DNA from: Streptomyces sp. NBC_01235
GTDB taxonomy: Bacteria; Actinomycetota; Actinomycetes; Streptomycetales; Streptomycetaceae
Assembly (NCBI RefSeq): GCF_035989285.1
Contig: NZ_CP108513.1
Coordinates: forward strand, 2,356,001 to 2,420,000
Length of the DNA stretch: 64,000 bases
Direction of reading: 5' to 3'
Shown here: positions 48,212 to 52,753 of the stretch, piece after piece
Layout: every line of letters begins with the position of its first letter
Position numbering within the stretch: position 1 is the stretch's first letter
Made by a program: the position numbers and the translations under genes
The notes under the pieces: model-generated
The model's database searches: none
The model's input: only the letters and a program-made list of their open reading frames with translations
Told to the model about the DNA's origin: nothing

Positions 48212-48895
48212 TCAGACCGCCCGGTTGCGCCGACGCGCCAGCTCGTCCGCCGGGTTGTGCCCGACGAGCGTCTCCCCGGTGTCGACCCGTTCCCCGTGCA
48301 GCTGCGACAGCGCGCGCTCGACATCCCGCCACACCACGCCCACGGCGATCCCGAAGATCCCCTGGCCGCCCTGGAGCAGCGCGTGGACCTCGTCCGGCGA
48401 GGTGCACTCGTAGACCGTGGCGCCGTCGCTCATCAGCGTCATGCGCTCCAGGTCGCTGAACCCGCGCTCCCGCAGATGCTGCACGGCGGTGCGGATGTTC
48501 TGCAGCGACACCCCGGTGTCCAGGAACCGCTTGACGATCTTCAGGACGACGACGTCCCGGAAGCTGTACAGCCGCTGCGTACCGGACCCGTGGGCGGGCC
48601 GCACACTCGGCTCGACGAGCCCGGTGCGCGCCCAGTAATCCAGCTGGCGATAGGTGATGCCCGCGGCCGCACAGGCCGTCGGGCCGCGATAGCCGATCTG
48701 CTCGGACGCCATGGACGTCGCCCCTCCGCTGCTCGGCACGGCCGCCGGTCGATGCGGAGCGTGATCGGCCGCGCTGCCGTGCGGGGGGTATCCCCTGCTC
48801 GAACGCAGCTGAGAGCTTGGGGGAGGGTACGGACCGCTCCCCCCGACACCGAGTCCGGGGGCACCCCCAGCCGTACCGTCGCCGCTGCTTCTCAC
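48212..48895 (-). CDS. MerR-family regulator
   Basis: A 227-residue protein starting at GTG 48895, six bases after GGAGG. About 60 low-complexity residues precede MASEQIGYRGPTACAAAGITYRQLDYWARTGLVEPSVRPAHGSGTQRLYSFRDVVVLKIVKRFLDTGVSLQNIRTAVQHLRERGFSDLERMTLMSDGATVYECTSPDEVHALL, a MerR-type HTH with a long dimerisation helix and a C-terminal effector-like part. It is the Streptomyces relative of mycobacterial Rv1830, in the ftsR-FHA neighbourhood. A palindromic repeat (48816-48868) lies within its early codons and may explain the low-complexity leader. Confidence 0.9.
   Translation of the reverse strand: MRSSGDGTAGGAPGLGVGGSGPYPPPSSQLRSSRGYPPHGSAADHAPHRPAAVPSSGGATSMASEQIGYRGPTACAAAGITYRQLDYWARTGLVEPSVRPAHGSGTQRLYSFRDVVVLKIVKRFLDTGVSLQNIRTAVQHLRERGFSDLERMTLMSDGATVYECTSPDEVHALLQGGQGIFGIAVGVVWRDVERALSQLHGERVDTGETLVGHNPADELARRRNRAV
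48816..48868. repeat. Palindromic element inside the MerR coding region
   Basis: CTTGGGGGAGGG, CGCTCCCCCCG and GTCCGGGGGCACCCCC form mutually complementary G/C-rich blocks, in frame within codons about 10-27 of the MerR gene. The same type of palindrome lies upstream of ftsR (51753-51784) and at 28839-28870. Confidence 0.6.
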
Positions 48896-49141
48896 GCCGA
48901 CCTCCGTCCTTGACCTGCCTTCTCGACGGTAGGCAGTCACCAGGGGTGCGTCAACGATCGCCACACTCGGCACGCCGAGTGATAATCACCCTAAGAGTGG
49001 TTTCCCGCACCCCACCGCGGGGAAAGGCTAGCCGAATGCGCCGAGAGGTAGCCGTAGGACGCTCTCACTCGCCGCTGGCATTTGCCGTGAACGGAGCAGG
49101 CACCCCCCGTACAGGACGGCCACGTCACGCGGATGCGCCGA

Positions 49142-49615
49142 CTACTGGTTGCTGGTGCCGAAGTCCTCGGGCGAGATCTGGTCGAGGAACTCGCGGAACT
49201 TCTCCACCTCGTCCTCCTGCTCGTCCGGGATGGCGATCCCCGCGTCGTCGAGCACCGTGTCACTGCCGTAGATCGGCGTCCCCGTGCGCAGCGCCAGCGC
49301 TATGGCGTCGGAGGGCCGCGCACTCACCTCGACCCCGCTGGCGAAGACCAGCTCCGCGTAGAAGACACCCTCCCGCAGATCTGTGATGCGCACCTCACTG
49401 AGCTCCTGACCGACGGCCTCCAGCACGTCCTTGAACAGGTCGTGGGTCAGCGGCCGCGCGGGGGCCATGCCCTGCTGGGCGAAGGCGATGGCCGTCGCCT
49501 CCCCCGGTCCGATCCAGATGGGGAGGTAACGGTCGCCTCCCACTTCACGCAGCAGCACGATCGGTTGGTTGGAGGGCATCTCGACCCGGACACCTACGAC
49601 ATCGAGCTCGTTCAC
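49142..49615 (-). CDS. Bifunctional nuclease domain protein (DUF151)
   Basis: A 157-residue protein: NELDVVGVRVEMPSNQPIVLLREVGGDRYLPIWIGPGEATAIAFAQQGMAPARPLTHDLFKDVLEAVGQELSEVRITDLREGVFYAELVF, then SARPSDAIALALRTGTPIYGSDTVLDDAGI. This is the BFN domain (DUF151), described as a DNase/RNase in plants and found next to ftsR-type MerR genes in actinobacteria (mycobacterial Rv1829). The final acidic region QEDEVEKFREFLDQISPEDFG is a flexible tail. Function here is unproven. Confidence 0.92.
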   Translation of the reverse strand: MNELDVVGVRVEMPSNQPIVLLREVGGDRYLPIWIGPGEATAIAFAQQGMAPARPLTHDLFKDVLEAVGQELSEVRITDLREGVFYAELVFASGVEVSARPSDAIALALRTGTPIYGSDTVLDDAGIAIPDEQEDEVEKFREFLDQISPEDFGTSNQ

Positions 49616-49699
49616 ACAGCAACCCTAGGCCGTGCCCGGGACGTTTGGGTAGTCGGGCCGGGAACGGGTGACCGATCCACCCAGGGCGAACCCGCCCCC

Positions 49700-50090
49700 T
49701 CAGGGCAGCCGCACCCCGAGCGCGGTCTGCACCAACGCCGCGTGCAGCCGGACCGTGAGCCCCGCGAGCTCCTTCGTACGGGCTTCCGCAAGGGCCCTGG
49801 TCTGCGGATTGCGGTGACGCCTGAGCGGGGCCACCACCTGGTCCACGAGCCCGGCCTCACGGTCGGCCGCGGCCTTCATCACACGCAGATGCCGAGGCTC
49901 GATCCCGAAGCGGCCCAGCTCGGACACGAGCGCGGCCACCGTGGCCGCCTCGGCGTCGTAGACCCCGTCCTCCAATGGCACGACGAGCCCGTACGACTCC
50001 CATTCCGTGAGCTCCGGCTCACTGATCCCCGCAGCGGCCAACAGCTCGGACCGGCCGATCCGGGCGACGGTGGGCCCCTCCGAGGGCCTT
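49700..50090 (-). pseudogene. ftsR: C-terminal half of FtsR, cut off by an IS element
   Basis: Downstream (in gene order) of the IS the reading frame continues RPSEGPTVARIGRSELLAAAGISEPELTEWESYGLVVPLEDGVYDAEAATVAALVSELGRFGIEPRHLRVMKAAADREAGLVDQVVAPLRRHRNPQTRALAEARTKELAGLTVRLHAALVQTALGVRLP. This is the effector/dimerisation half of the FtsR family, with the typical second HTH-like part GISEPELTEWESYGLVVP. It lacks its own start. The 130-residue N-terminal half lies on the other side of the IS at 51388-51743. FtsR activates ftsZ in Corynebacterium; here it is split. Confidence 0.9.
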
Positions 50091-51387
50091 GGGTTCTAGG
50101 AGTCGTCGCAACACCCCAGCTCAAGGGGTGCGATGGAGTTCGAGATCCGCAAGGTGCGGACGGTGGCGCAAGGCCGTAGGCAGCTGGTCCGTGAGCGGGA
50201 GGAATACTTCCGGCTCATGGACCAGGGCCTGAGCAGCTTGGAAGCCTGCCGACGCGTCGGGATCAATACCCGGACGGGCAAGCGGTGGCGCAACGGCCGC
50301 AACCCGTCGGGCAGGCACAAGGCGGCGCCACCGATCAAAGCGGTGGCGCCGCCTCCCGGTCCGTCCCGGTATCTGCGTGAGGCCGACCGGATCCACATCG
50401 CCGACCGGCTGCGGGAGAAGGCCACGGTCCGCACGATCGCCGCCGAGCTGGGTCGCAGCCCGTCCACCATCAGCCGGGAGATCCGCCGCAACCGGCACCC
50501 CGGCAACGGCCAGTACCGCCCCTTCGCCGCCCAGGCCCGCGCCGACTCCCGCCGGCCCCGGCCCAAAACCGGCAAGATCGGCCAGCACCCGCAGCTGCGG
50601 GACTTCATCCAGGACCACCTGGACATACGGTGGAGCCCGGAGCAGATCTGCCAGGCTCTGCGGGCACAGTTCCCCCGGCGGCCGGAGATGCACGTGGTCC
50701 ACGAAACGGTCTACCAGGCCCTCTTCGTCCAAGGACGCGGCGAACTCCGCCGCGAACTGGCCAAAGCCCTCCGCTCGGGCCGCACCCGCCGCAAGCCCCG
50801 CCGCCAGGCCCAGCAGCGCCAGCCGCGGTTCTCCACCCCGATGGTCATGATCAGCGAACGGCCCGCCGAAGCCGAGGACCGGGCCGTGCCCGGCCACTGG
50901 GAAGGCGACCTGATCATCGGCAAGGACGGTGCCTCCGCCATCGGCACGCTGGTCGAGCGCGCCACCCGCTACGTGGTGCTGCTGCACCTGCCCCACGGCC
51001 GAACCGCCGAACATGTCCGCGACGCCCTGGTCGAAACCGCCCGGACCCTGCCCGCCCACCTGGTGCGGTCACTGACCTGGGACCAGGGCACCGAGATGGC
51101 CGCCCACGGCTCCTTCACCCTGGCCACCGACATCCCGGTCTACTTCTGCGACCCGGCCAGCCCCTGGCAGCGCGGCTCGAACGAGAACACCAACGGCCTG
51201 CTGCGGCAGTACTTCCCCAAGGGCACCGACCTCGCGGTCCACACCCGCGAACGCCTGGACGCCGTCGCCGCCGAGCTCAACGGCCGCCCACGCAAAACGC
51301 TCGGCTGGGAAACCCCGGCCGAGCGCCTGCATAAACTGCTCGCGGCCTGATCAACACGACCACGTGTTGCAACGACCCCTAGAAACC
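50091..51387 (+). mobile_element. IS30-family insertion sequence
   Basis: A 1297-bp element bounded by imperfect terminal inverted repeats of 24 bp (left 50091-50114, right 51364-51387; 21 of 24 positions match, e.g. TTCTAGGAGTCGTCGCAACA versus TTCTAGGGGTCGTTGCAACA). It carries one transposase and little else, and its size fits IS30 elements. It is inserted in the ftsR gene in opposite transcriptional sense. A target duplication (2-3 bp expected) could not be seen with confidence. Confidence 0.92.
50133..51350 (+). CDS. IS30-family transposase
   Basis: A 405-residue transposase. An N-terminal HTH (EYFRLMDQGLSSLEACRRVGINTRTGKRW) and a second HTH (IADRLREKATVRTIAAELGRSPSTISREIRRNRHPGNGQYRPF, the IS30 signature) precede the DDE catalytic core: Asp259 in HWEGDLIIGKDG, Asp317 in LTWDQGTEMAAH, and Glu351 in SPWQRGSNENTNGLLRQYFPKGTDL. 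This triad with NxxxNGLLRQYFPKG is diagnostic for IS30. The frame is intact and starts 19 bases after the left repeat, so the element may be active. Confidence 0.96.
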   Translation: MEFEIRKVRTVAQGRRQLVREREEYFRLMDQGLSSLEACRRVGINTRTGKRWRNGRNPSGRHKAAPPIKAVAPPPGPSRYLREADRIHIADRLREKATVRTIAAELGRSPSTISREIRRNRHPGNGQYRPFAAQARADSRRPRPKTGKIGQHPQLRDFIQDHLDIRWSPEQICQALRAQFPRRPEMHVVHETVYQALFVQGRGELRRELAKALRSGRTRRKPRRQAQQRQPRFSTPMVMISERPAEAEDRAVPGHWEGDLIIGKDGASAIGTLVERATRYVVLLHLPHGRTAEHVRDALVETARTLPAHLVRSLTWDQGTEMAAHGSFTLATDIPVYFCDPASPWQRGSNENTNGLLRQYFPKGTDLAVHTRERLDAVAAELNGRPRKTLGWETPAERLHKLLAA

Positions 51388-51743
51388 GCCGGCTCCAGGA
51401 GGGCCTCACCGTCCCGCTGCCGGCCCACGGTCGGCAACGGCGCGGCCTCGCCGCGCTCCATGGCGTCCAGGTGCTCGCGGATGACCTTGAGCGGCAGGTA
51501 GTGGTCCCGCTGCATCCTCAGTACGTGGCCGAGGCGCTCGACGTCCTCCGCGCTGAACTTGCGGTACCCCGAAGGGGTCCGCTGCGGCTCGATGAGCCCT
51601 TCCGACTCCAGGAAACGGATCTTGGAGATGGTGACTTCGGGGAACTCGTCACGCAGCGCGTTCAGCACGGTGCCGATGCTCATCGGACCACCGTCCGCGG
51701 CGGCGGTGCCGTTTCCGGCACCGCCCCTCGGTGTTCGAAGCAT
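51388..51743 (-). pseudogene. ftsR: N-terminal half of FtsR (MerR-type HTH), truncated by IS30
   Basis: The frame from ATG 51743 reads [118 protein letters not shown] and enters the IS at 51387, adding 12 foreign residues ([15 protein letters not shown] end) before a stop at 51351. The helix-turn-helix and its dimerisation helix are intact, so a DNA-binding fragment of about 130 residues could still be made while the rest of the protein is lost. RBS AGGGAAGG precedes the ATG. Confidence 0.9.
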
Positions 51744-51786: not shown

Positions 51787-52563
51787 TCAGTAGCCCCGCT
51801 GGCTCGCGTAGAAGACCAGCCGGTACTTGCCGATCTGCACCTCGTCACCGTTCGACAGAGCGACCTCGTCGATCCGCTCCCGGTTGACGTACGTGCCGTT
51901 CAGACTGCCGACGTCCGCCACCCGGAACGTGCCGTCCGGGTTGCGCCGGAACTCCACATGACGACGCGAGACCGTCACGTCGTCGAGGAAGATGTCGCTC
52001 TGCGGGTGACGGCCGGCCGTGGTCAGGTCGCCGTCGAGAAGGAAGCGGCTGCCCGAGTTCGGACCGCGGCGCACGACCAGCAACGCGGAACCCAGCGGCA
52101 GCGCGTCGACCGCGGCCTGCGCCTCGGGAGAGAGCGCGGGCAACTGCGTCTGGCCAGTGACCTCGGCGTCGTAGGCCTCAAGACCGGAAATGGAGATGGT
52201 GGAGGTCGTCTCCGACGCGCGCTCGGGCGTCAGCCCGGGGCGCAGCGGCGCGCCGCAGTTGGAGCAGAAGCGGCTGTTCTCCGCGTTGCGGTTACCGCAC
52301 CTCGTACACACCAGGGCCGACATAGGGGAAAACCCTCCACCCGTACTTGAGGTTGACGGTTGGCCGAAACCTATGCCGCCGGACTGCGCAGGGTCAACAG
52401 ACGCCGCACCCTGACCTCCGGAAACTTCACCGCCCGGACCACCCACCTGGTCCCTGAACAGCGGCCGCTGACCCTCTGCGTCAGGCTGTGCGCGATGACG
52501 AGCGGTCGCGTTGTCGCTGCCCTCTCGCGCGCTCTTGCCGAACAACTTCGCAAACAACTTCAC
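51787..52563 (-). CDS. FHA-domain protein with zinc ribbon (GarA/OdhI-like)
   Basis: A 258-residue protein starting at GTG 52563 ([16 protein letters not shown]), nine bases after AAGGGG. A Ser/Gly-rich region leads to [30 protein letters not shown], a zinc ribbon (CxxC-x9-CxxC), and a TT-pair region ([12 protein letters not shown]), the position phosphorylated in OdhI/GarA by Ser/Thr kinases. The FHA domain follows: [52 protein letters not shown] (Arg, Ser, Asn of the phosphothreonine pocket present). GarA inhibits 2-oxoglutarate dehydrogenase in mycobacteria; the Streptomyces counterpart is inferred to work similarly. Confidence 0.93.
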
Positions 52564-52753
52564 GGGCGATTCCCCTTGACCGAAACAGACCCGCCCGTGG
52601 GGCAGGACGAACCCTGACTGAATACACCGGCCGACCCGGACACCTTCACAACGTCCATGTCCACCAGACAGTTTCCACCACGCACCACCCAATCAGTGCG
52701 TCGACCCCCCGCAACCTCATGCCCCTGCCGTACGCCCCGCATGCACCCCCGGT

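Follow-up and report, generated by a model that had tools for sequence, protein, structure and literature searches.

An IS30-family element splits ftsR in Streptomyces sp. NBC_01235, probably by way of a hairpin in the linker

In Streptomyces sp. NBC_01235, the gene that encodes the regulator FtsR is interrupted by an IS30-family insertion sequence. We are fairly confident that a hairpin-seeking element recently entered the only ftsR gene of this host, at the centre of an inverted repeat in the variable linker. The kind of event is ordinary, namely the disruption of a gene by an insertion sequence. Two aspects go further: a targeting preference that would explain the site, and a presumed FtsR operator before ftsZ that persists without FtsR. 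The host is likely a natural FtsR-null Streptomyces and can be compared with a clade that lacks ftsR. Retention of the operator without ftsR makes the control of ftsZ in Streptomyces a directly testable question; no paper on the function of FtsR in this genus was found in the literature searched.

The split gene and its element

The genome is a single contig of 11,090,044 bp (11.09 Mb), and the window, meaning the whole stretch of DNA that was analysed, comprises its positions 2,356,001-2,420,000 (64,000 nucleotides). On the minus strand, the gene order is FHA (OdhI/GarA type), ftsR, nuclease, a second MerR gene, and dinB, so that ftsR lies between the FHA and nuclease genes and the operon neighbours are otherwise retained, as an earlier note on this DNA had stated. 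According to excerpts of PMC6683498, FHA, ftsR, nuclease, and merR form a conserved cluster across Actinobacteria, and FtsR of Corynebacterium glutamicum (cg1631) and its Mycobacterium tuberculosis counterpart Rv1828 have the same FHA, nuclease, and merR neighbours. The FHA gene matched NF041660 with an E-value of 2e-55 at 186 bits, under the cut-off of 200, and the nuclease gene had no match in NCBIfam. The coordinates of all features are collected in Table 1.

Table 1. Features of the ftsR locus (positions in the window)
Feature	Position	Strand	Remark
Second MerR-type gene of the cluster	48212..48973	-	start provisional
Bifunctional nuclease gene, next downstream of ftsR	49142..49615	-	name from the earlier note and from synteny in PMC6683498 (excerpts)
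Conserved promoter-like block before the nuclease gene	49610..49655	-	overlaps the first codons
ftsR 3' part	49700..50087	-	rest of linker and C-terminal domain, through the stop codon
Target inverted repeat in ftsR, left arm	50069..50081	+	13 nt, 2 mismatches; placed by eye
Target duplication GGC, left copy	50085..50087	.	3 bp
IS30-family element	50088..51390	+	1,303 bp; one of three identical genomic copies
Left terminal inverted repeat	50088..50114	+	21/27 matches to the right end
IS30 transposase	50133..51350	+	405 aa
Right terminal inverted repeat	51364..51390	-	
Target duplication GGC, right copy	51391..51393	.	3 bp
ftsR 5' part	51391..51743	-	ATG start, HTH domain, and first part of linker (117 codons + 2 nt)
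Target inverted repeat in ftsR, right arm	51398..51410	+	placed by eye
FHA (OdhI/GarA-type) gene, directly upstream of ftsR	51787..52692	-	NF041660; start provisional

No single gene at the locus matches the FtsR model NF050798 over its full length. Instead, there are two separate matches, one of the N-terminal half (profile 1-89, E = 2e-46) and one of the C-terminal half (profile 99-222, E = 4e-36; 105-222 in a separate search), and the gene is interrupted after codon 117. When the element and one GGC were removed in a script, the resulting empty site gave an ftsR of 245 codons that is open and has no internal stop; its product is 91% identical to FtsR of Streptomyces sp. NBRC 110468 in a gapless alignment. 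C. glutamicum FtsR, which served as a control, matches the same NCBIfam model as the host gene, and the solved C-terminal domain of Rv1828 (PDB 5ydc) is matched by that of FtsR from a relative (L055). Unlike cg1631 and Rv1828, the host gene is broken in the linker, a region that varies in length (PMC6683498, excerpts). A second ftsR was not found in the 11.09 Mb genome: all 39 of 39 candidates were scored, and the next match reached 42.9 bits against a cut-off of 150.

IS30-family elements typically carry terminal inverted repeats of about 20-30 bp and generate short target duplications of 2-3 bp. The element in ftsR has a DDE transposase, terminal inverted repeats (21/27), and a short duplication. 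Its transposase matches the IS30 family model NF033563 with 299.9 bits against a cut-off of 80 and contains WEGD, DQGTE, and NENTNG, which we take to be candidate D-D-E motifs; the gene is oriented opposite to ftsR. A search of the host genome with the element yielded six matches, three of them full copies and three short and diverged. The ends were set by the stretch that is identical in the three full copies, beyond which the flanks differ. A 3-bp duplication flanks every full copy and differs among them: GGC at ftsR, ATG and ATC at the other two. The GGC duplication, absent from the earlier note, is the mark of an apparently simple insertion. The identity of the three copies suggests recent transposition activity. 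With two identical copies elsewhere and an empty site that reads in frame, the insertion in ftsR looks recent.

The split by an IS30 element and the intact (open, 405-aa) transposase gene thus agree with the earlier note, and several of its measurements had to be revised. The size of 1,297 bp became 1,303 bp through the identity of the three copies, the coordinates of the two ftsR pieces were corrected to those in Table 1, and the terminal-repeat match of 21/24 holds for element positions 4-27 and becomes 21/27 when counted from the true ends. A CTAG target duplication was also considered and rejected; with it, the two parts of the gene would be shifted by one base relative to each other, and comparison of the three copies moved the ends outward.

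Three identical copies of an element are a classic cause of false joins, and the split could in principle be a misassembly or a minority state. This is highly improbable, as both flanks of the ftsR copy carry the same GGC and the joined gene is open and in frame. Each of the other two copies is likewise bordered by a matching duplication of its own and by hairpin arms on either side, so no swap of flanks needs to be invoked.

Relatives of the element were also seen beyond the full copies. The short matches in the host genome include C1:7076056-7076676 and C1:6082279-6082452 (73-91% identity), which are diverged and probably relics. Among plasmids, 832 records had some match, 135 of them from Streptomyces, and in 25 records a single place covered at least 80% of the element. 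Plasmids are a possible route of its spread.

Hairpins as targets of the element group

For a survey of insertion sites, 32 element copies were taken, comprising the three own copies and 29 from other genomes of the genus (one locus each, the best matches among 109 other genomes with a match). Three were dropped (two partial copies and one with a missing flank), which left 29 for analysis. Symmetry around the insertion centre was expressed as an arm score, defined as matches minus twice the mismatches, with a threshold of at least 10. An inverted repeat reaching this threshold surrounded the insertion centre in 23 of the 29 chromosomal copies, against 1 of 1,740 random control centres from the same loci; the remaining six sites scored below 10. 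The mean fold energy was -37.1 kcal/mol for the sites and -20.9 kcal/mol for the controls. A looser measure, at least 10 pairs across the centre, separated the groups poorly, since it was reached by 26/29 sites but also by 52% of controls.

Target duplications were 3 bp in 19 of the 29 copies, 4 bp in two, and 2 bp in one, and seven sites had no exact duplication at the inferred ends. A codon-composition test placed 28/29 sites outside coding-like ORFs; the one in ftsR is the sole exception. Sixteen sites are located within 65 bp past the end of a coding-like ORF, and 12 of the 29 have convergent coding-like ORFs on both sides. On plasmids, five of ten copies reached the threshold, compared to 2 of 1,000 controls, and five scored below it; two of the five high-scoring copies represent one site entered in opposite orientations. 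Nine plasmid records list genes, and in all nine the element sits in an interval between them, although those gene tables are incomplete; the tenth record lists no genes.

The site in ftsR can be explained on this basis, because the hairpin in its coding sequence resembles the usual target of the element. Insertion would have taken place at the midpoint of an inverted repeat within the stretch coding for the linker between the two FtsR domains. In the window without the element, an arm score at least equal to that of the ftsR site occurs at 0.15% of positions. There are 15 hairpin peaks with an arm score of at least 10, and ten of these exceed the ftsR hairpin, so ftsR is a possible target and not the best one. 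Among 80 relatives, 71 had a linker that could be parsed, and six of the 71 reached a score of at least 10, taken as the best value over the whole linker and hence more generous than the score of a site. The linker hairpin is, as judged from these sequences, not special to the host lineage.

Comparable preferences exist in other elements. IS1630 of Mycoplasma fermentans, also of the IS30 family, targets inverted repeats of varying sequence, as the host element does; IS1630 duplicates inverted repeats of varying length, whereas the duplications in the group studied here are mostly 3 bp. As described in excerpts of PMC1525189, the REP-targeting ISPsy8 inserts on the axis of symmetry of a hairpin and gives a direct repeat of 3 bp, like the host element, and its targets often lie between convergent genes, a tendency that it shares with this group. 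However, ISPsy8 is restricted to one repeat family (REP), whereas the present group uses assorted hairpins and has an IS30-type transposase. The open-licence literature searched yielded no Streptomyces IS30 element described as targeting hairpins.

The predicted truncated product and the downstream genes

With the gene split, no full-length FtsR would be made. For the C-terminal half, in-frame translation from the element is predicted to be blocked by a TAG codon in that frame close to the element end. On the N-terminal side, the predicted product has 130 aa: 117 native residues, a proline from a hybrid codon, and 12 residues encoded by the element. This confirms the length of about 130 residues expected earlier. 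This HTH fragment may be made; if so, it is probably weak or inert. The earlier note raised the idea of a dominant repressor; that the fragment acts in this way by binding DNA at ftsZ or elsewhere is quite unlikely. In favour of the idea, the fragment covers the whole HTH part of the FtsR model (profile 1-88), ftsR retains its start codon along with a plausible ribosome site, and the host has an intact operator before ftsZ. Against it, the C-terminal domain is gone from the fragment, and C. glutamicum FtsR behaves as a dimer on elution and has an inverted-repeat site (PMC6683498, excerpts), so strong binding is not expected.

A second potential consequence is polarity. Transcription coming from the FHA gene must traverse about 1.3 kb of element DNA on the antisense strand, and the insertion might act mainly by silencing the nuclease, MerR, and dinB genes, a polar effect that the earlier note had raised. 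This is unlikely. A promoter-like block with the consensus CGACTAyCCAAA to CCTAGGGTTrCTGTGTGAA precedes the nuclease gene and is kept in all 29 of 29 aligned loci, including eight without ftsR, and it is intact in the host. Since the block is kept where ftsR is absent, it presumably belongs to the nuclease gene, and the insertion need not silence the downstream genes; full polarity is improbable and the earlier proposal is weakened. The TAGGGT in the block lies 6 nt before the GTG start of the nuclease gene, an arrangement that would fit a leaderless nuclease transcript. Moreover, no terminator-like site was found in the element by a scan whose promoter model, poorly suited to Streptomyces, called no promoter anywhere in the stretch.

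Loss of ftsR among relatives and the operator before ftsZ

FtsR was searched with the profile in 295 genomes of the genus, and nine candidates were scored per genome. A best match with E <1e-67 was present in 283 of them, and all candidates were scored in the other 12. These are the host, two genomes with broken copies (G180 and G224), the incomplete genome G079, and eight without ftsR (G121, G037, G156, G120, G135, G271, G113, and G186; loci L178-L185). A match over the family cut-off was obtained in 285/295 genomes, a count that includes the host and G224, where one piece alone passes. G079 (78% complete, with the nuclease gene also missing) was excluded from the loss count.

In the eight genomes, an interval of about 80-97 nt that contains no ftsR separates the FHA and nuclease matches, and FHA, nuclease, MerR, and dinB are all retained. 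In a midpoint-rooted tree built from three neighbour proteins of 78 taxa, the eight form one clade. The simplest reading of these data is one single loss, given that ftsR is present in C. glutamicum. No relocated FtsR was found in the eight genomes, where the best family matches reached 36-46 bits and covered the HTH part only. A relocated, diverged FtsR was thus rejected for these hits, which are other MerR proteins; in seven of the eight, the best match is a protein that also occurs in the host (61-68% identity), and in G120 it is another MerR protein. A few weaker matches do extend into the model's C-terminal portion, as in G037 (profile 97-202, 31 bits), and a very diverged replacement is possible, the comparison having covered the best match per genome.

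The G180 copy (L176, 2350-3200) is broken, with its middle replaced and its frame changed, and would represent a separate loss unless it reflects a sequencing error. The ftsR of G224 lies in two frames and, given a genome completeness of 88%, may owe this to a sequencing error. Loss of ftsR therefore appears rare but not unique, with eight of 295 genomes in one clade that kept its neighbours and a broken copy in G180 as well; the earlier note, in calling such a loss unexpected, somewhat overstated the case.

A search with the C-terminal half of FtsR confirmed 432 loci, of which the 80 nearest, all titled Streptomyces, were kept. The alignment count gave a one-piece ftsR in 79 of the 80, and the element was absent from all 80 fetched loci, so a recent, local insertion is probable. 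In the locus of Streptomyces sp. P3 (L071, 5643-6378), a break at the linker divides ftsR between two reading frames.

How the loss is tolerated may be understood if FtsR is dispensable in Streptomyces, if ftsZ has several promoters, and if the conserved block ahead of the nuclease gene can drive transcription of the genes downstream. Tolerance is supported by the eight-genome clade, which keeps FHA, nuclease, MerR, and dinB without ftsR. Several ftsZ promoters have been reported in S. coelicolor and S. griseus, and the absence of FtsR in C. glutamicum has severe effects on growth and shape (both from excerpts of PMC6683498); the loss could accordingly be costly in the host too.

The sequence before ftsZ, AACCCTAAA-N9-TAGGGTT, is close to the published FtsR site (PMC6683498, excerpts), and C. 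glutamicum and M. tuberculosis (Rv1828) have a similar site before ftsZ. With one mismatch allowed, this presumed operator was found at one place per genome in 21/21 genomes searched (the host, the eight without ftsR, the broken G180 and G224, and ten with intact ftsR), a match on both strands of the near-palindromic site being counted as one place. All 21 places lie directly before ftsZ, and a backward control pattern had no matches in these genomes. The host operator is intact and lies 152 nt upstream of a reference codon within the N-terminal part of ftsZ. Across the eight ftsR-less genomes, 15/16 operator arm positions are invariant, compared to 10/20 positions just before and 21/40 just after. 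The ftsZ promoter region is conserved as a whole (149/200 positions, and 40/40 at the gene start), so the contrast between the operator and its flanks is moderate.

The TAGGGT in the right arm would presumably fit a -10 element, a reading that alone leaves the left arm unexplained. It is quite possible, if a little short of probable, that a further factor also recognises the operator, or that the operator is itself part of the core promoter, and that it so outlasts the loss of ftsR, whether by deletion as in the one clade or by the element. If either is true, FtsR would be only one input at this site. Alternatively, too little time may have passed since the loss, though the clade lies deep in the tree.
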